DNA from: a virus
DNA: 21,535 nucleotides
Direction: 5' to 3' (one strand)
IMG/VR virus record: IMGVR_UViG_3300041809_000683
Span: 1 to 21,535 of that record
Part shown: in pieces, positions 3,714-21,535 of the stretch
Numbering within the stretch: position 1 is the stretch's first letter
Layout of the letters: each line of letters opens with the position of its first letter
The notes under the pieces: generated by a model
Databases searched by the model: none
What the model saw: the letters and a program-made list of their open reading frames with translations, nothing else
What the model was told of the DNA's origin: nothing
Position numbers and translations under genes: made by a program

Positions 3714-4364
3714 ATGGTAGATTGGTCAGATTGCGGTGTGTATGCAATTCGCAACACTGTGACTGATCAAGTGTACGTGGGAAGTGCCTATTCCTTTAAG
3801 AATCGCTGGAGTAGACATCGTCAGGAATTGATTTTGGGAACTCACTGCAATCCTAAGTTGCAGGCTAGCTGGAATAAGTATGGAAAAGACGCTTTTGTAT
3901 TTGAAGTGCTTGCCTACTGTTCCAAGGGTGACGTGCTGATTTTTGAACAATTGGGAATTGACGCATTTGATTCATACAACAAAGGTTTCAATCTTTGTTC
4001 CAAAGCAGGCAGTAGAGCAGGAACTACTCAGTCTTCAGAGGCTAGAGAGAGAATTCGGCTATCAATGATGGGAAAGACCAATCGAAAAGGTCAGTCCAAC
4101 TCTGAAGAACATAGTCTTGCCATAGGGATAGCCATGAAGGGAAATCAGTACGCTAAGGGACATTGTCGTTCCGGCTATACTCTTAGCCCTTCTCACTTAA
4201 CAAACTTGTCCGAGTCTCACAAAGGATATGTGTGGTCTGAAGAATCCAAGGCTAGGCTGAGAGCCAACACTAAGGGCAGACCAGGACGGAAATCCACAGT
4301 GGTCACTAGACAAGCGATGCGTGATGGTTGGGCAAAGCGGAAACTGAAGCTACAGGCCTTCTAG
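3714..4364 (+). CDS. GIY-YIG homing endonuclease (free-standing)
   Basis: 216 aa. The N-terminal nuclease domain shows GVY at residues 8-10 and YVG at 21-23 (the GIY-YIG pair), Arg31 in KNRW, and a Glu at 78 in FEQLGID that fits the metal-binding glutamate. The C-terminal half has several NUMOD3-like DNA-binding motifs (SSEARERIRLSMMGK, SEEHSLAIGIAMKGN, WSEESKARLRANTKG). Such enzymes cut DNA at a homing site to copy their own gene into phages lacking it. The gene stands between a structural-region gene and the tail tube gene, is visibly richer in A/T than both, and has a good ribosome site (AGGAG, 9 bases before the ATG). No intron features were seen around it, so it is best viewed as a free-standing mobile gene. 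Confidence 0.92.
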   Translation: MVDWSDCGVYAIRNTVTDQVYVGSAYSFKNRWSRHRQELILGTHCNPKLQASWNKYGKDAFVFEVLAYCSKGDVLIFEQLGIDAFDSYNKGFNLCSKAGSRAGTTQSSEARERIRLSMMGKTNRKGQSNSEEHSLAIGIAMKGNQYAKGHCRSGYTLSPSHLTNLSESHKGYVWSEESKARLRANTKGRPGRKSTVVTRQAMRDGWAKRKLKLQAF

Positions 4365-6569: not shown

Positions 6570-8613
6570 ACTTTCTCAACTGAAACAGGCTCTCTTGAAG
6601 AAGGAAGCTGATCTTGACATGCTTGACGACCAGATCATGTCTCTGCCGACTTCTTCAGTCAAGTTTGACTCCCTTGCCCAGAAGCGTGAGGACATGGAAA
6701 CCGATATCCGTCAGCTTCGCGAGGGCATCGAGGTTCTCAATGCTTGGGACACTCTCAAGGGCGGCGATTGGTCAGATGAGATGAAGCAGTCTCTTGGCGA
6801 AATCGATCCGTTGGTCGTGGAAATGGCGACCGGCGAGGCTGATGAAGGAATGGGCATGGATGATTTGGGTATGGGTGCTCCTCCCATGACCAACTTCGCA
6901 CCTGAAGCTCCCCTGCCTCCTCCTGCACCAGCTGTTGAACCTCCTCCCCTGGAAGAGCCTGTAGCACCTCCGCCTGTTGAAGAAAACACCATGGATGAAA
7001 TTCCTTCCGGTGATGAACTTGCCGGCGAAGAGCCACCGGCGGAAGAGCCACCTGTCGAGGAAGAGCCACCTGTCGAGGAAGAACCTCCTGCTGAAGAGGC
7101 ACCGATTACGGCATCAAGCAAGAAATCCAACTTCCCGACTCCAAGTAAGAAAGGCACTCCGGTGCCTACCGCTCAGAAGAAAGGCAACACAACCATGGCG
7201 ACTGCGACCGAAACCACGAAGTCTTCTTCTCTTAAGGATAGAATCGCTGCTATCAAATCAAAGAGAGCAGAAGCGATCAATAAGGAAGCACAGACTAGAG
7301 TCGCTTCCGCTTGGACTGTTGCTAAGACTCTTTTGCCCACAGCCCCTGCAACCATTCAACAGAAGCTAGCAGAATCTCTTCTGGCGAATACCACCAAGGC
7401 TCTCAAGGCCATCTGCCGGCAGACAGCGAGAAATGCTGCTTTCCAGAAGACCTGCGAGGCGATCGCGTCGGTCACCAAGACCACGATGAACGACCTCATG
7501 GAGAACCCAAGCATTCTTGCCAGTGAAGAGAGTGCTGTGAAGTCTGAATTGAAGGGTGATCCCAAGAGTGCCACCACGAAGAAGGCTGACGACCGCAAGG
7601 ACGCTGGCCCGGTGCCTCCTGCTTATCCCGAACCCATCCGCAAGGAACCTGCTGAGATCGATGCCGGCAAGGCTGGCGATCGTGAAAAGGACACCGTCGA
7701 CAAGACCATGAGCGACCAGAAGGTCACGCCCAAGGAAGCAGCCAAGACCAAGAAGGCCTGCTCTGCCTGTGGCAAGGATCACCTGGAAGGCGAATGCTCG
7801 ATGGCGACAACAGCGTCCAAGAAGACCAAGAAGGCCGGTCCTGAGGACATGGCTCCCCCGGCTGCAGGCCCCACGGCTCCTCCAGTTGAAGAAGGCGGCG
7901 ACATGCCTCTACCTCCTCTGCCGGAAGAGGGTGAAGGCGAAGAGAAGCCTGAAGGTGAGTCCGAGGAAGTGGTTGGCGACGAAGAGAAGCTCGAAGTTGT
8001 TGAGCAGATCGACGAAGTCATCCAGGACATCGAACAGATCAAGGATGACATCGAGGAGAATTCCGAAGAGCTCAACCTTGAAAGCATCTTCGACAACGAC
8101 AAGCTCGAGGACAAGGAAGCATCTCTCGCCAACAATGGCAACGTCACTGCCGGCGAAGACGACAATGACTTCCTGCCCAGTTCAGCCCAGAACATGGAAG
8201 CCAGCATGGAAGAGTCTCCCATCGGCGACATGTTCGACCTGACTGCCTCCGATGCTGACCCGATGGCTCGTCTCTTGGGCAGCACCAAGTATGCCGAAGT
8301 GGATGCGTCTCTGTCCAAGGTCGTGAAGCCTGGGGATATCGCTCAGACCTTCAAGACTGATGCCGTTGGCAAGGATCCTCGTGACAACGAAACCGATCAC
8401 GAAGATTCTCTGCTGACTGACATCCTCAAGAGTCTCGACCAGGACGACTACGACACCACTCGTGATCAGACTTCGCACCAGGAAGAGCCCACCGAGGCCA
8501 ACACCAAGGTCGGCACCAAGAAGTCCATCACCAAACTGAAGACTGTGGTTGCGGCGGCTCCTGCTGCGGAATCCAATCTGGCGTCTCTGCTGTTCAGCGA
8601 CGACGACATGTAA
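6562..8613 (+). CDS. Acidic scaffold-like / prohead core protein
   Basis: 683 aa, extremely acidic and proline-rich, with helical segments. Residues 1-70 look like a coiled coil; ~105-185 are Pro/Glu-rich with short tandem repeats (EEPPVEEEPPVEE); ~215-310 form an Ala/Lys-rich helical domain; a C-x2-C-x3-H-x4-C cluster (CSACGKDHLEGEC) lies near residue 400; ~440-530 are again acidic with a long helix; and the end is SDDDM. Composition and place between a probable protease and the capsid gene suggest a scaffold or core protein removed during head maturation. The start overlaps the stop of the protease gene by eight bases, which suggests coupled translation. An in-frame ATG at 7195 (MATATETTKSSS), with AAAGG about 10 bases upstream, could give a shorter second product. 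The identity is inferred, not recognised from sequence. Confidence 0.6.
   Translation: MRKLSQLKQALLKKEADLDMLDDQIMSLPTSSVKFDSLAQKREDMETDIRQLREGIEVLNAWDTLKGGDWSDEMKQSLGEIDPLVVEMATGEADEGMGMDDLGMGAPPMTNFAPEAPLPPPAPAVEPPPLEEPVAPPPVEENTMDEIPSGDELAGEEPPAEEPPVEEEPPVEEEPPAEEAPITASSKKSNFPTPSKKGTPVPTAQKKGNTTMATATETTKSSSLKDRIAAIKSKRAEAINKEAQTRVASAWTVAKTLLPTAPATIQQKLAESLLANTTKALKAICRQTARNAAFQKTCEAIASVTKTTMNDLMENPSILASEESAVKSELKGDPKSATTKKADDRKDAGPVPPAYPEPIRKEPAEIDAGKAGDREKDTVDKTMSDQKVTPKEAAKTKKACSACGKDHLEGECSMATTASKKTKKAGPEDMAPPAAGPTAPPVEEGGDMPLPPLPEEGEGEEKPEGESEEVVGDEEKLEVVEQIDEVIQDIEQIKDDIEENSEELNLESIFDNDKLEDKEASLANNGNVTAGEDDNDFLPSSAQNMEASMEESPIGDMFDLTASDADPMARLLGSTKYAEVDASLSKVVKPGDIAQTFKTDAVGKDPRDNETDHEDSLLTDILKSLDQDDYDTTRDQTSHQEEPTEANTKVGTKKSITKLKTVVAAAPAAESNLASLLFSDDDM
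7024..7095 (+). repeat. Tandem repeat coding for EEPPVE units
   Basis: Two exact 18-base copies of GAAGAGCCACCTGTCGAG (7042-7059 and 7060-7077) are flanked by two degenerate copies. They code for a Glu/Pro linker in the scaffold-like protein and keep the frame. Confidence 0.8.
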
Positions 8614-8642: not shown

Positions 8643-8674
8643 CGGCTCAGATTAACCTCTGAGCCGATTCTTTT
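8643..8674 (+). terminator. Intrinsic terminator after scaffold-like gene
   Basis: Perfect 8-bp stem CGGCTCAG (8643-8650) with CTGAGCCG (8659-8666), 8-base loop, then ATTCTTTT. The stop codon of the antisense HNH gene lies inside the loop. This terminator implies that the capsid gene downstream needs its own promoter, which I could not identify. Confidence 0.82.
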
Positions 8675-9593
8675 GACAAGTTCCTCTGTGTCGATTGAAT
8701 TCGCCTAGTCCTACAATTATCTCCTGACAACCAGAACAATTGAATCTCATCTTGGAACGATCCACAGCTTCCTCGGCTGGGGTGGGTTTGTGTTTGGTGA
8801 GGAAGCCGGTGAAGAGAAATGTTAGAAGAGAGGATTTTGTGGTTCCAGAAACGGATCCGCAGAACCAGGTTTTGTCATTAGTAGAGTTGTAGGTTACTTC
8901 AATCACACGAGAATCAACTGAATGTATGTACTTGTAGTAAGCACCTATATGAGAGGAAATTATCCATTCTTGATTCTGTAGAATTTCGTGGTATGGGTTT
9001 ATAGCAGGTTTGGTGGCCAAGCAGGCTTTGCGATGACCTGCAAATACAGATTTACGAATTTGCTTGAATTCTCGGTTACAGTTGCCACAGGTATAGTTTC
9101 GCTCAATCCTATTATCATACTGATTTACTCTACGCTGAATTTCGGCTTGTTGGGCCCGTTGTCTAGGACTCCAAAACTTGGCAAGAACAGTTAGATTCGT
9201 TTCCTTGGCTTTCTGGTATGCTTCTGATATTTTTTCAACTCCGCTTTCTGAAATCATCAGATCTTTGCTTGCTTGCCATCTATTTTCATACTCAGCAAAC
9301 ATGAAGCAAAAAGACTGAACGACTGATCTTACTCCTGGGAAAGCTCTGAATAGAAAGTAGTGTGCCCATACATGGTCTTTAGGAGTAAACACTCGCTTAT
9401 TCCATGGATTTTTCTTGAATACAGAATATTCTTTGAATGGATATCGAGGAAGAATATGGTGTCTCTCTACTACCAATTCAGTCGAATCCTCATGAGAAAA
9501 TACCCAGTCTAAGTATTTATCTAGGTACTCTTCTGATCCTAGATTGTTCACCAGCTTGTTCAAAAATGCTTGCTTTACTTCACACTTGTTCAT
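8652..9593 (-). CDS. HNH homing endonuclease with two zinc fingers
   Basis: 313 aa, read opposite to all virion genes. The HNH core is seen as ERHHILPR (His45-His46), PWNKR (Asn65), and DHVWAHYFL (His74, His78). The C-terminal half holds two C2HC zinc-finger-like clusters: CGNC...HRKAC around residues 170-190 and CSGC...HRGTC around 285-305, probably for DNA recognition. The core spacing is the same as in the second HNH protein at 16827-17531, so the two are related. The gene is A/T-rich relative to its neighbours and has no clear Shine-Dalgarno site; GTAGTAT stands 9 bases before the ATG. It lies directly beside a group I intron core, just upstream of the capsid gene. Confidence 0.88.
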   Translation of the reverse strand: MNKCEVKQAFLNKLVNNLGSEEYLDKYLDWVFSHEDSTELVVERHHILPRYPFKEYSVFKKNPWNKRVFTPKDHVWAHYFLFRAFPGVRSVVQSFCFMFAEYENRWQASKDLMISESGVEKISEAYQKAKETNLTVLAKFWSPRQRAQQAEIQRRVNQYDNRIERNYTCGNCNREFKQIRKSVFAGHRKACLATKPAINPYHEILQNQEWIISSHIGAYYKYIHSVDSRVIEVTYNSTNDKTWFCGSVSGTTKSSLLTFLFTGFLTKHKPTPAEEAVDRSKMRFNCSGCQEIIVGLGEFNRHRGTCQKNRLRG

Positions 9594-16237: not shown

Positions 16238-16954
16238 ATGGACACTGTCTTGCTTACTCGTCTGGCCACTATAAGAGGTCGGCACAGTCATCTTGGAACT
16301 CAGATTCTCTTCGAGGACAGGAACATTGCTCGACTCCATGGGAAGATTGAGCAACTTGAGAAGGACAAGATCGAACTGGTCAAGGTTCAGACTCTCATTG
16401 ACCGAGCCATAACGACAATCAGCGCAAATGGGATCGGGAAGATCGAGCAAGTTGTGACTGCTGGACTTCATCAAGTCTTCGGAAACAGAGGGAATCTGCG
16501 TTTCGTAGTTGAGAAGAAAGAGGGCAAACGCGGCAACATCTACAAGCTCAAGGTCCAGAAGACTCGCAAAGATGGTCTCGTGATCCAAGGAGATGTTCTC
16601 AAGTCCTTCGGCGGCGGCCTGGCAAATGTCATCAGCTTTCTTCTCCGAGTCATGATGATCAAGAAGTTCCGCTTAACCCCATTTATAGTTCTGGATGAAA
16701 GTTTCTCAAACGTCAGTGCAAACTACTTGCCACAGGTGAGTGCTATGCTAAAATCTCTCACGTCAAAACATGGATTTACAGTACTGCTTGTTACTCATCA
16801 GGCAAGAGTAGCTGAAGAGGCAGATGCTATTTACCAAGCAGTTCCCAGTGATGACGAGAATGGTTCACCTCAACTTGTGAAGACAGAATTTTCGGAGGAT
16901 CTTTTTGCTTCAGTTGTTCCTTTCGATCCTCCCATAGCTGATGAATCGATTTAG
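16238..16954 (+). CDS. SMC/Rad50/gp46-like ATPase, C-terminal half only
   Basis: 238 aa from ATG 16238. Residues 25-62 form a charged coiled coil. The ABC signature-like SFGGG is at 123-127, the Walker B FIVLDE at 149-154 (Asp153, Glu154), and the switch histidine in VTHQ at 187. No Walker A is present, so the protein is only the second half of the usual head domain; the first half would have to come from another gene. Related proteins work with a nuclease in recombination and end processing. An in-frame TTG at 16190 with GAGG three bases upstream is an alternative start overlapping the previous gene; the ATG has no clear ribosome site. Residues ~197-238 are encoded opposite the end of the HNH gene and may not be original. 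Confidence 0.72.
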   Translation: MDTVLLTRLATIRGRHSHLGTQILFEDRNIARLHGKIEQLEKDKIELVKVQTLIDRAITTISANGIGKIEQVVTAGLHQVFGNRGNLRFVVEKKEGKRGNIYKLKVQKTRKDGLVIQGDVLKSFGGGLANVISFLLRVMMIKKFRLTPFIVLDESFSNVSANYLPQVSAMLKSLTSKHGFTVLLVTHQARVAEEADAIYQAVPSDDENGSPQLVKTEFSEDLFASVVPFDPPIADESI

Positions 16955-17531
16955 ATATCTTCTTTTTGGTTTCCTCAGAAAGAGGATGACGAACTCTATT
17001 TCTAGCTGATTTTGACATTTTCCTTCGATGTTCTTTGGTAAGTGTTTTCCCAAGGCTAGATTCCTTAATCCTGCATTTAACTGCTTCTGAAATTACATGT
17101 CCTCTAAGAGATTCTGATATCCTTCTCTTGGTTTCTTTAGAATGTACTTTGTTCTTGTTCCACTTCGAGAATTCGAGTTTAGAACGCTCATACTCTTGGG
17201 CATATTCATCCAAGAGAGATATGTCTAGTTTCTTATAGCGATCAGCCCACATTAGTCTCCAGGCAATAAGTACACTTGGCTCGTTAGGCAGGATTTGCCA
17301 CAAAAGATAATGACTCTTGAAATGATCCCGAGCAGCAAGGGATTTTCTATTCCAGGGAAATTCTCTCATTTTACGGTACTCTGAGAAGAGAGCCTGAGGT
17401 AGAATGTGATGATTTTCTCTGTATTCATTGACTGAAGGTGAAGTGCACTTTTCAACAAAGGAAAGATATAACTCCAAAGCAGGTTTATCAGCATTGGGAA
17501 ATTTCTCTAAGAAAAGTTGAGGTAATGACAT
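16827..17531 (-). CDS. HNH homing endonuclease with NUMOD3 repeats
   Basis: 234 aa, antisense to the operon. The HNH core is ENHHILPQ (His41-His42), PWNRK (Asn61) and DHFKSHYLL (His70, His74), with the same spacing as the HNH protein at 8652-9593. Residues ~130-195 contain three NUMOD3-like DNA-binding motifs (SKETKRRISESLRGH, TKEHRRKMSKSARNR, SEETKKKISKS). The last ~42 residues are encoded inside the 3' end of the ATPase gene on the other strand. There is no clear Shine-Dalgarno site; GTAGTAT stands 10 bases before the ATG, as in the first HNH gene. The gene is A/T-rich compared with its neighbours, as expected for a recent mobile insertion. Confidence 0.88.
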   Translation of the reverse strand: MSLPQLFLEKFPNADKPALELYLSFVEKCTSPSVNEYRENHHILPQALFSEYRKMREFPWNRKSLAARDHFKSHYLLWQILPNEPSVLIAWRLMWADRYKKLDISLLDEYAQEYERSKLEFSKWNKNKVHSKETKRRISESLRGHVISEAVKCRIKESSLGKTLTKEHRRKMSKSARNRVRHPLSEETKKKISKSIHQLWEDRKEQLKQKDPPKILSSQVEVNHSRHHWELLGK

Positions 17532-18277: not shown

Positions 18278-18365
18278 AAAGAAGTTCAAGTGTCCCAGTC
18301 GTAACTGTCGTAGAAGTACGAGTCACTTCGGGAAATACTGCAACAAACACAAGGATGATCAATGA
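18270..18365 (+). CDS. 31-aa zinc-finger-like mini-protein
   Basis: 31 codons plus stop. The product is strongly basic with a metal-site pattern: Cys8, Cys13, His19, Cys24 and His27 (KCPSRNC, then YCNKHK). The start overlaps the preceding stop (ATGATTAA, eight bases) and the stop overlaps the ATG of the primase-like gene (ATGA), so it fits exactly into the chain of coupled genes. This context is the main reason to accept such a short gene. It may bind DNA or RNA; a role with the primase-like protein is only a guess from position. Confidence 0.6.
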   Translation: MIKKKFKCPSRNCRRSTSHFGKYCNKHKDDQ

Positions 18366-19165
18366 CGGGAATTGAATGGTACCAGTCTTGGTGGCAAGAT
18401 GTTCCCTTACTGATTTCTGAAACGAATGTCATCTATCGCAAGAAGGTAGCCAAGGGTCAATCAGACAAGGTCACGGCCACCAAAAAGAAGATCATCTCCG
18501 AGCGTGGATGGGAGCCCTGTGCTCATTTGATTGAGAAGAACTTCAATCAGATTCTCGAGGAACTGAATTTCTTTTATGTGCCCAAGGGATTCCTCCCTGG
18601 ACCATGCTTTGTCTTCCCTCAGAGAGATCTGACGGGTGCTTTCACCCGAGCTCAAACACGACCCTTGTACCAAGTGTTCTTCAATTCTGATGAAGGCGAG
18701 AGTATTGCCAAATACTGCGTTGCCGGTTGCAAGAAGGACGACTTCAACGGACCAATCTGGTTGGGCAATGATCCACGAACTTTACAGATGATCGTGGAAT
18801 TGGGATGGGTTATCATTGTAGAAGGACCCTTCGATCTCTTGGCCTGTCGTCTTCTGTGTCCAGATATTCCTTTCCTTTGTTCCATGACCAAAAACATCGG
18901 CGAGAGACATGAAGACTACCTTCGCATGATGGGCGTCACCAAGATATTTCTGATGTATGACAACGAAGCTCCCAAAGTAGGCAAGGACGTGGGAGCCGGA
19001 AACCTTTCGATGTGGAAGATTCAGAATCACATCAAGTGGTGCCAGGTAGACGTTATCCTTTCCCCGGCGGAAGATGCTTCGGCTTGCCTTAAGAGCCCTG
19101 TCAAGGCTAGACTTCTCAAATCTCGAATTCTTTCAGCAGTTCCGGTATCAGTTAGTCATGAATGA
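18362..19165 (+). CDS. DNA primase-like TOPRIM protein
   Basis: 267 aa. Residues 60-105 resemble the N-terminal part of the DnaG catalytic core (LNFFYVPKGF, CFVFPQRDLTGAFTRAQTR). The TOPRIM domain shows IIVEGPFDLLA with Glu154, and FLMYDNEAPK with Asp200, where DnaG proteins normally have DND; here the second Asp is replaced by Glu202 one step on. Members make RNA primers for lagging-strand synthesis. The N-terminal CHC2 zinc domain and any helicase domain are absent, so this is a core-only primase or a TOPRIM protein of other use. It is coupled to the small genes upstream by an ATGA overlap. Confidence 0.72.
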   Translation: MTGIEWYQSWWQDVPLLISETNVIYRKKVAKGQSDKVTATKKKIISERGWEPCAHLIEKNFNQILEELNFFYVPKGFLPGPCFVFPQRDLTGAFTRAQTRPLYQVFFNSDEGESIAKYCVAGCKKDDFNGPIWLGNDPRTLQMIVELGWVIIVEGPFDLLACRLLCPDIPFLCSMTKNIGERHEDYLRMMGVTKIFLMYDNEAPKVGKDVGAGNLSMWKIQNHIKWCQVDVILSPAEDASACLKSPVKARLLKSRILSAVPVSVSHE

Positions 19166-19198
19166 GTGGCAATTCTTTGAGGAAATGGACAGGGAGAC

Positions 19199-19474
19199 AT
19201 GCTGCTAGCTGTTCCAGGCATCATACCGGGTCGTCCTCGATTCGGGTACCCCAGTACAGAACCATGCTGGGTTTGTGGCCGACACAATAACAACCAGGCT
19301 GAACCCAGATTCCTCTATGTGGTCTGTGAAGATCACCAGAATGTTCCATCAACAGAGATAAACCGGAGATTCAGAGACCATAGTGAGTGTCTACGTCGAT
19401 CCGCTCTTCGAGTACGGAGGCAGTGCGACCTTCAAATGGAAGCACAGTTGTCACATGTATGCCGACACCCTTGA
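19199..19474 (+). CDS. Small zinc-finger-like protein
   Basis: 91 aa. Residues 23-46 show a C-x2-C ... C-x2-H pattern (CWVCGRH, then VVCEDH), typical of a small treble-clef or HNH-like zinc site, after a Pro/Gly-rich start. The last ~30 residues (from CLRRSALRVRR) lie opposite in frame to the start of the DUF4031 gene and look less natural, with many Arg codons; they may reflect a lost stop codon or frameshift. The ribosome site is AGGGAG, 3 bases before the ATG. No family is assigned. Confidence 0.5.
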   Translation: MLLAVPGIIPGRPRFGYPSTEPCWVCGRHNNNQAEPRFLYVVCEDHQNVPSTEINRRFRDHSECLRRSALRVRRQCDLQMEAQLSHVCRHP

Positions 19475-19641
19475 AGAACTTCACGCCATGGCGAAGAAGA
19501 TCGGGATGAGAAGTGAGTGGTTTCAGAACAAAGAGAATGGTGACCTGCCCCATTCTGCCCCATTACGATTTGGTTGAGAGCAGAAGAGTGAAAGCAATAA
19601 TGTTTGGAGCCGTGGAACACACCAGACATCAGATGGTTTGA
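19383..19641 (+). pseudogene. DUF4031 family gene, frameshifted by 10-bp duplication
   Basis: From GTG 19383 the frame gives MSVYVDPLFEYGG, then HSCHMYADTLEELHAMA and IGMRSEWFQNKENGDL, the pattern of DUF4031 proteins (VYVD ... H.LAD..EELH.FA..IG..R.WFQ). At this point CTGCCCCATT is present twice in tandem (19545-19554 and 19555-19564). Removing one copy restores one frame: DLPHYDLVESRRVKAIMFGA, ending HTRHQMV at the TGA 19639-19641, 82 aa in all, which is the expected end of the family. As written, translation stops at 19577 after PLRFG. The function of the family is not known. It is either a real pseudogene or an assembly error; the underlying family call is firm. Confidence 0.82.
19545..19564 (+). 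repeat. 10-bp tandem duplication
   Basis: CTGCCCCATT occurs twice without spacer and breaks the DUF4031 frame. Confidence 0.95.
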
Positions 19642-19667
19642 GTATCGAAGAGCAAGGAGAGAATCGA

Positions 19668-21062
19668 ATGTATAAGCGTGGAAATTGGTCTGTGCTGGGA
19701 GTGAAGAAAAACGACAAGCTGCTGGAAGCCATCGGTCAGCCAAGGATGATGCTGGAACTGTCGGCTCTGGTTGCCCTGGTGAGTTGCAAGATGAAGGAAA
19801 TCACGACGTCAGGCATCAATCCATTTGCTCAGCCTCGTTTGGATGAAACTATCTATGCGGTGACCAGTGATTCCACGGACGAGCCTTCGGTATTCCTGGA
19901 GAACCTGTACCACTATGCCAAGGACACCCCGGCTGACCGGGCGATCGCGGACATCGATCCCTACCTCCCATTCGTCGGACTCAGTGAATCCGACTACAGT
20001 CTGGGCGACGAGAAATTTGCCTTCTGGTATGTCATCAATCAGTGGAAGGACTCGAACGACGCGGCGAGTTTCAAGGAGAAGCTCTGCTACGAGAGGTTCG
20101 AACGTCCCTATGCGTTCATCAGTGGTGACGACAAGAAGCACGTCGATGCAGAAGCCTCCTCGCAGACAGCCATCCTCCGCCGGCAGTTTCCGGTCTTCAT
20201 TGATTTCCGGGCGGGACTGATCTTCGCTGAGACCACTGCTGGCCCTGAGATTGAGATTCTACTTGACACTTTCAAGACCATCGGACTGGAAATCGAAGGT
20301 CGTCACTGGGAGTTTGACAACGATCCTCTCTGGATGTTCAAGTTTCTGAACTTCGCGGCAGAGAACACCAAGTACAAGGAAGAATTTGCCAAGCGTGCCG
20401 AAGAACTGACCATGTTCTCCAAGGGCAACATTGCGAAGCTCGAGAACAAGGCCATGGAGGCAATTGTCTCGAACTACTATTCCTTGGCCGAACTTCCCAA
20501 CGCTCTGTGGGCTGGCTTGAAGGCACCGGCTCAGTTCCGGCTACACCCCGCGAGCGACACCCCTATTGGCGCCACGACACCGAGCAATGCGTGGACCGTG
20601 CTCAATTTCACGGACGATGCTCAAGTGTTCGCTTCGGGTGTGGTCATCCAGGAACTTTACACCAGGATCAATAAGGCTGACCAGAGCGAGAAGATCATCC
20701 GCAAGGATCTCTTCACCCTCACCATCGACCCGTCCATCAACAACTTGGACTTGGGTGTGGCCTTCCTCAAGGGATTCGATCTTCCCAAGATCAAGACAGA
20801 GATCAATCGTGAAGTGAAGAAGACCAAGACCAACCTGGCAATCTCTCAGTACTGGATGCGCTGGCTCCAGGAAATGGAAGAGGCCGTCCTCACCTTCATC
20901 AGTTGTGTTCGAGACACCCTCGAGCTTTCCGGCAGCGCCAAGGCTGGTATCCTTCCCATGGATCTCGACGATGACAAGAGCGGAACTTTCGTGATGGGCA
21001 CGGACGTGAGTTCCGTCAGCGATTCGCCAGCTGTGGTGTTCATCGACAAGAAAACGGCATGA
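19668..21062 (+). CDS. Unrecognised 464-aa protein of the replication region
   Basis: 464 aa from ATG 19668, chosen because AAGGAGA lies 7 bases upstream; a TTG at 19638 is in frame but lacks such a site. The protein is soluble-looking, acidic and mixed alpha/beta, with no membrane segment. The segment FPVFIDFRAGLIFAETTAGPEIEILLDTFKTIGLEIE (about residues 180-215), followed by a long helical part and a C-terminal helix (EEAVLTFISCVRDTLEL), faintly recalls the layout of RdgC-type DNA-binding proteins, but the likeness is too weak for a name. The acidic end (DLDDDKSG) is unusual. It follows the broken DUF4031 gene and ends just before a 27-aa ORF. Confidence 0.7.
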   Translation: MYKRGNWSVLGVKKNDKLLEAIGQPRMMLELSALVALVSCKMKEITTSGINPFAQPRLDETIYAVTSDSTDEPSVFLENLYHYAKDTPADRAIADIDPYLPFVGLSESDYSLGDEKFAFWYVINQWKDSNDAASFKEKLCYERFERPYAFISGDDKKHVDAEASSQTAILRRQFPVFIDFRAGLIFAETTAGPEIEILLDTFKTIGLEIEGRHWEFDNDPLWMFKFLNFAAENTKYKEEFAKRAEELTMFSKGNIAKLENKAMEAIVSNYYSLAELPNALWAGLKAPAQFRLHPASDTPIGATTPSNAWTVLNFTDDAQVFASGVVIQELYTRINKADQSEKIIRKDLFTLTIDPSINNLDLGVAFLKGFDLPKIKTEINREVKKTKTNLAISQYWMRWLQEMEEAVLTFISCVRDTLELSGSAKAGILPMDLDDDKSGTFVMGTDVSSVSDSPAVVFIDKKTA

Positions 21063-21152: not shown

Positions 21153-21535
21153 GAGTTACCTTTACCTGCATATCCGACACTCATGGATTCCAAGGCCACA
21201 TGAGGTTGCCAGATGGAGATCTACTCATTCATGCTGGTGATTTTTCCATGAATGGAAATCCCATCCAGGTCCTCAATTTCCTAGCCTGGTTTGAAGAGGT
21301 GTGTTCGAAGTTTAACAGTGAGGACTTTACTCCTGAGACCATTGCTGATGCCTTGGAAGCAGAAAATCTCATCTCAATGAACGCTCATCTCGAGGCTCTG
21401 CGTCGCATCAGTGAGGCCCTGGGCCATCCGTATAGAGGCGACACCACCAAGTCCTGTCTCGACCTGGCAGACCTTGCTGTCATCAAGATTGGAATTGGTC
21501 TTGGGAAAGAAGAGGATCTAAAGAACAATCCGTTC
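21149..21535 (+). CDS. Calcineurin-like phosphoesterase start, possibly fused, 3' end outside
   Basis: 129 codons are visible from GTG 21149 to the right edge with no stop. Residues 1-45 are the clear start of a metallophosphoesterase: TCISDTHG (Asp and His for metal 1), LPDGDLLIHAGDFS (the GD motif) and VLNFLAWFEEV. Normally the GNHD motif follows within about 15-25 residues, but here the text changes to a polar helical segment (NSEDFTPETIADALEAEN, then LRRISEALGH and LADLAVIKIGIGLG) with no GNHD in the window. This is either an in-frame join to another gene after a deletion, or a large insertion with the missing motifs further right. The start overlaps the previous stop (GTGA). Confidence 0.65.
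   Translation, partial: MRVTFTCISDTHGFQGHMRLPDGDLLIHAGDFSMNGNPIQVLNFLAWFEEVCSKFNSEDFTPETIADALEAENLISMNAHLEALRRISEALGHPYRGDTTKSCLDLADLAVIKIGIGLGKEEDLKNNPF

Follow-up and report, generated by a model that had tools for sequence, protein, structure and literature searches.

The window (the entire IMG/VR virus record, 21,535 bases) contains a DUF4031 gene whose reading frame is broken, and this gene lies together with a small upstream ORF between two intact genes; the coordinates of the region are given in Table 1. The families PF13223 (Pfam DUF4031) and phrog_4887 comprise small proteins of phages and bacteria of unknown function. The two DUF4031 halves were used as separate profile queries, with the frame left unrepaired. 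Residues 3-51 of the 64-aa ORF match PF13223 with E 1.1e-10 (42 bits, above the curated cut-off of 25.6) and its first 51 residues match phrog_4887 with E 8.7e-16, and the final residues SAPLRFG fall outside the family frame. The out-of-frame stretch 19555-19638 matches positions 44-70 of 76 in PF13223 (E 4.6e-4, which taken alone is under the curated cut-off) and positions 56-82 of 97 in phrog_4887 (E 4e-5). Compared with these families, the N-terminal two thirds are in frame and the next third is in another frame, the matches being consecutive; the frame is broken at the PHYDL motif and the tail is shifted too. A full-length DUF4031 in one frame was not found, the H-Y-D and R..A...GA segment being out of frame past the duplication.

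Table 1. Features of the DUF4031 region, with positions in the window
Feature	Position	Strand	Evidence
Toprim/primase-like gene left of the insert, intact	18362..19165	+	phrog_47 DNA primase, E 7e-8
-1 indel, one A fewer than in the near relative	19195..19196	+	Alignment
Small upstream ORF	19199..19474	+	ORF list, alignment, homologue comparison
+2 indel, AGAG versus AG in the near relative	19373..19376	+	Alignment
Broken DUF4031 ORF, GTG start, 64 aa	19383..19577	+	ORF list and profile matches
12 bp in frame, shared by the window and more distant homologues but missing from the near relative	19429..19440	+	
Exact 10-bp tandem duplication, CTGCCCCATT x2	19545..19564	+	One copy in the near relative
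Displaced 3' part of DUF4031 (LPHYDL...HQMV, then stop), other frame	19555..19641	+	Profile matches
+1 indel, TTT versus TT in the near relative	19637..19639	+	Alignment; ORF of the relative
Gene right of the insert, intact	19638..21062	+	Tunturi_5 homologue annotated as exonuclease recombination-associated protein

The break is located at an exact tandem duplication, in which the two copies of CTGCCCCATT (19545-19554 and 19555-19564) stand head to tail and shift the frame by +1. The earlier note had described this duplication inside the DUF4031 gene, and the profile matches of both halves in different frames bear it out. The unit is not flanked by microhomology and the match run is exactly 20 bp. 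Exact tandem repeats with a period of at least 10 occur with a mean of 0.025 per window in dinucleotide-model shuffles, so the 10-bp repeat is not a product of chance. It breaks the frame just ahead of the conserved PHYDL motif, and most of the invariant family positions after this motif (D58, R64, A67, G71 and A72 in the numbering of L004) lie past the break; the 10-bp insertion is therefore the lesion of consequence among the indels described below. In the predicted structure of an intact homologue (mean pLDDT 82.4), the part lost in the window comprises one strand (56-59) and the two final helices (61-69, 77-88).

Homologues of DUF4031 were found in over 300 phage records, most of them with enterobacterial hosts, and also in genomes of Acidobacteria and other bacteria; of the 337 phage records with a DUF4031 match, 317 span 80% or more of the relative's intact protein. 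A sequence search of the DUF4031 alignment against PDB found nothing, and a Foldseek fold search with the model of the intact homologue gave no match at E<=0.001. The best VIA-align match, the TrmE N-terminal domain (Z 6.8), was rejected, as it is under the level that would mean more than a common arrangement. With no fold match above a meaningful level, we claim no function for DUF4031, and in the literature searched it is mentioned in one paper, where it appears only within a domain table.

Next, we compared the region with related phages. The window derives from an uncultured myovirus with kinship to Tunturi_5, a jumbo phage of Acidobacteriota, and its source is probably a giant soil phage. 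Tunturi_5 (Tunturiibacter phage, PP885688.1) is a 309-kb myovirus-like jumbo phage isolate (PMC11924767). The major head protein of the window agrees with its Tunturi_5 counterpart at 76% over the matched pieces, with Bacillus phage G as a more distant match, and the product of the Toprim/primase-like gene agrees with the Tunturi_5 DNA primase at 36%. A nucleotide search of the region against named phages gave no match. Tunturi_5 and the window share homologous major head, primase and exonuclease genes; however, in Tunturi_5 the primase gene (ending at 22669) adjoins the exonuclease gene (starting at 22744) with 74 bp between them and without the DUF4031/upstream pair, and neither of these two genes has a match in the whole 309-kb record at the sensitivity of the search used. 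We therefore regard DUF4031 and the upstream gene as an accessory insert, which is probably dispensable, also for the phage of the window.

The closest sequence is found in two IMG/VR contigs, IMGVR_UViG_3300049728_000159 and 3300049729_000226 (187 and 112 kb), which are identical over the 26 kb compared and represent the sole close relative found. This near relative has the same gene order as the window and 92% DNA identity over 19000-19700, but it carries a single copy of CTGCCCCATT and an intact open DUF4031 of 89 aa. We observed four frame-changing indels relative to this sequence (-1, +2, +10 and +1) within 444 bp (19196-19639), and no others in the ~15 kb of coding DNA aligned elsewhere. 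This count leaves aside the small indels of the tail sheath ORF's hypervariable middle (1102-1576), which keep its 873-aa frame open. Under uniform scatter, four indels within such a span have a P of about 1e-4, which is a rough guide because the span was picked post hoc. The other coding indels that separate the two sequences keep the frame (+18 at 7065 and +6 at 21162). Across 1050-1600 the tail sheath ORF is hypervariable compared with the near relative, and the window keeps the frame and both ends.

The remaining three indels lie at the 3' end of DUF4031 and in or next to the upstream ORF. In the near relative, DUF4031 continues with ...MVEYRRARRESNV to 89 aa and its stop overlaps a likely start of the gene that follows. 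The +1 indel at the 3' end in the window removes the 11-residue tail EYRRARRESNV, so that a one-copy version would still stop at HQMV, about 11 residues before the end in the relative. The claim that deleting one copy restores an 82-aa protein following the family to its end therefore fails, as does the picture of a single clean slippage event, given the four clustered indels. In the upstream ORF, the core FGYP..CWVCG..NNQ.EPRF.YVVCEDHQ.VP is intact and appears zinc-finger-like by eye. The +2 indel in its last codons extends the 3' end by about 30 residues into DUF4031 and abolishes the stop overlapping the DUF4031 start, an overlap that is present in the near relative. The -1 indel falls at the likely start of this ORF or ahead of it and may be harmless because the homologues (L021-L023) have only the core from FGYP/NGYP onward in common. 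The DUF4031 of the near relative (L002 3001-3270) is without four residues (TFKW region) that are common to closer family members.

We then analyzed the substitutions in the two small genes and counted 14 synonymous and 3 non-synonymous changes relative to the near relative, where about 53 non-synonymous changes would be expected without selection at the observed synonymous rate. Given this pattern, four frame-changing indels accompanied by almost no amino-acid change are odd, and the excess of indels also fits sequence error. An old pseudogene in neutral decay would explain several frame-changing indels in one place, but with 3 non-synonymous changes instead of about 53 we consider it highly improbable. 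The very recent break proposed in the earlier note fits both the substitution counts and the presence of one close intact relative.

Our preferred explanation, to which we assign a probability of roughly 0.55, is a recent and ordinary inactivation or loss of an accessory DUF4031 gene by a real lesion. The DUF4031 gene and its small upstream neighbour would have been inserted between the primase and exonuclease genes, and in the sequenced haplotype the 10-bp tandem duplication would recently have inactivated DUF4031 by shifting the frame just before PHYDL; the residues after about 56 would therefore be lost or replaced, with the protein ending at 64 aa. The +1 near the DUF4031 3' end and the +2 at the last codons of the upstream gene would have arisen later or simultaneously, and we infer that the indels are true phage mutations. 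The region has the signature of a recent frameshift pseudogene, namely an intact orthologue in a close relative, a low dN/dS and a broken frame. A real inactivation is further supported by three observations: the cluster coincides with a gene that is probably dispensable and with the borders of that gene, frame errors are absent from the remainder of the contig, and the near relative carries its own 12-bp deletion in DUF4031. Against it stand the substitutions, which are unlike those of neutral decay, and the origin of the sequence from a metagenomic fragment with a chimera-like end.

The close rival is an assembly or sequencing artefact, which the earlier note had named as one option and which stays a serious possibility, although we favour it less. 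According to this explanation, a stretch of low coverage towards the end of the contig contains several false indels, the 10-bp duplication among them, and the true gene is intact. Both small genes have been under strong purifying selection until now, which is hard to reconcile with four genuine frame-changing indels. In addition, the contig end (21114-21535) is rearranged compared with the near relative, reading A-B-C and not A-C-B, and terminates precisely on a block boundary; we suspect a chimera or a graph loop. This rearranged end of a metagenomic fragment lies 1.5 kb downstream of the indel cluster. Both the A|B junction and the two-copy 20-mer are absent from all other viral contigs searched, among which no second record of the window haplotype was found, and the duplicated unit lacks flanking microhomology. 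However, no such errors are seen in the 1.4-kb gene that separates the cluster from the rearrangement or in 15 kb of coding DNA elsewhere. The errors would need to have struck precisely a dispensable gene and its borders, and the near relative likewise has an indel in DUF4031. Within the rearranged end, a 222-bp in-frame block (NSEDFTPETIAD...KNNPF) is gone from its own ORF and re-appended ~200 bp later, in frame, within an ORF that by eye resembles a metallophosphoesterase gene; the end of this block is exactly the end of the contig. An in-frame 6-bp tandem duplication of TTACCT (21156-21167) is located at the start of the metallophosphoesterase-like ORF (VRVTFTCISDTHG versus VRVTCISDTHG).

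A reversible on/off switch, in which DUF4031 is turned on and off across the phage population as one 10-bp copy is gained or lost, had also been proposed, and in its favour stands an exact tandem repeat inside the gene with a length not divisible by three. We found no support for it and consider it very unlikely. There are two copies only and no long slippage-prone tract, the near relative has one copy, homologues are without a repeat at the corresponding place, and the independent +1 at 19637-19639 truncates the tail in either copy-number state. A multi-copy tract of variable copy number among relatives, which would mark a phase-variable (contingency) gene, was not observed, and a literature search on tandem duplication as a means of phase variation in phages returned nothing relevant. 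Also very improbable is a real and polymorphic duplication at which low-level +1 slippage at CCC-C, or copy gain and loss, yields some DUF4031 and thereby tunable expression. Judged from the sequence, the CCC-C run that lies in frame at the repeat might permit an occasional +1 slip to the family frame, but the run also occurs in the near relative and is therefore not a special device.

Taken together, the frameshifted DUF4031 most likely stems either from a recent gene break of an ordinary kind or from a fault in the assembly, and not from an on/off switch. Of the interpretation given in the earlier note, the recent break agrees with the data, the artefact stays a serious rival and the switch finds no support; the three other frame-changing indels and the absence of the insert from Tunturi_5 had been overlooked. 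The finding is ordinary in kind, being a further case of a disrupted accessory gene, here on a fragment of an uncultured phage, or else an assembly flaw, and it teaches that the whole neighbourhood should be checked against a relative before a lone tandem duplication is called a switch. The comparison also places the contig among jumbo-type phages with a relative infecting Acidobacteriota.

Elsewhere in the window, we noticed an ORF at 3714-4364 that resembles a GIY-YIG homing endonuclease by eye and has no counterpart in the aligned segment of the near relative. Two HNH-type endonuclease-like ORFs with an HHILP motif (by eye) are located on the - strand at 8652-9593 and 16827-17531, opposite to the direction of the other genes, at sites that are mostly unalignable with the near relative. 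Finally, an 18-bp tandem repeat of GGAAGAGCCACCTGTCGA, encoding residues of the PPVEEE type, was observed at 7041-7082 in a 683-aa ORF, where the window carries an extra unit compared with the relative and the frame is preserved.
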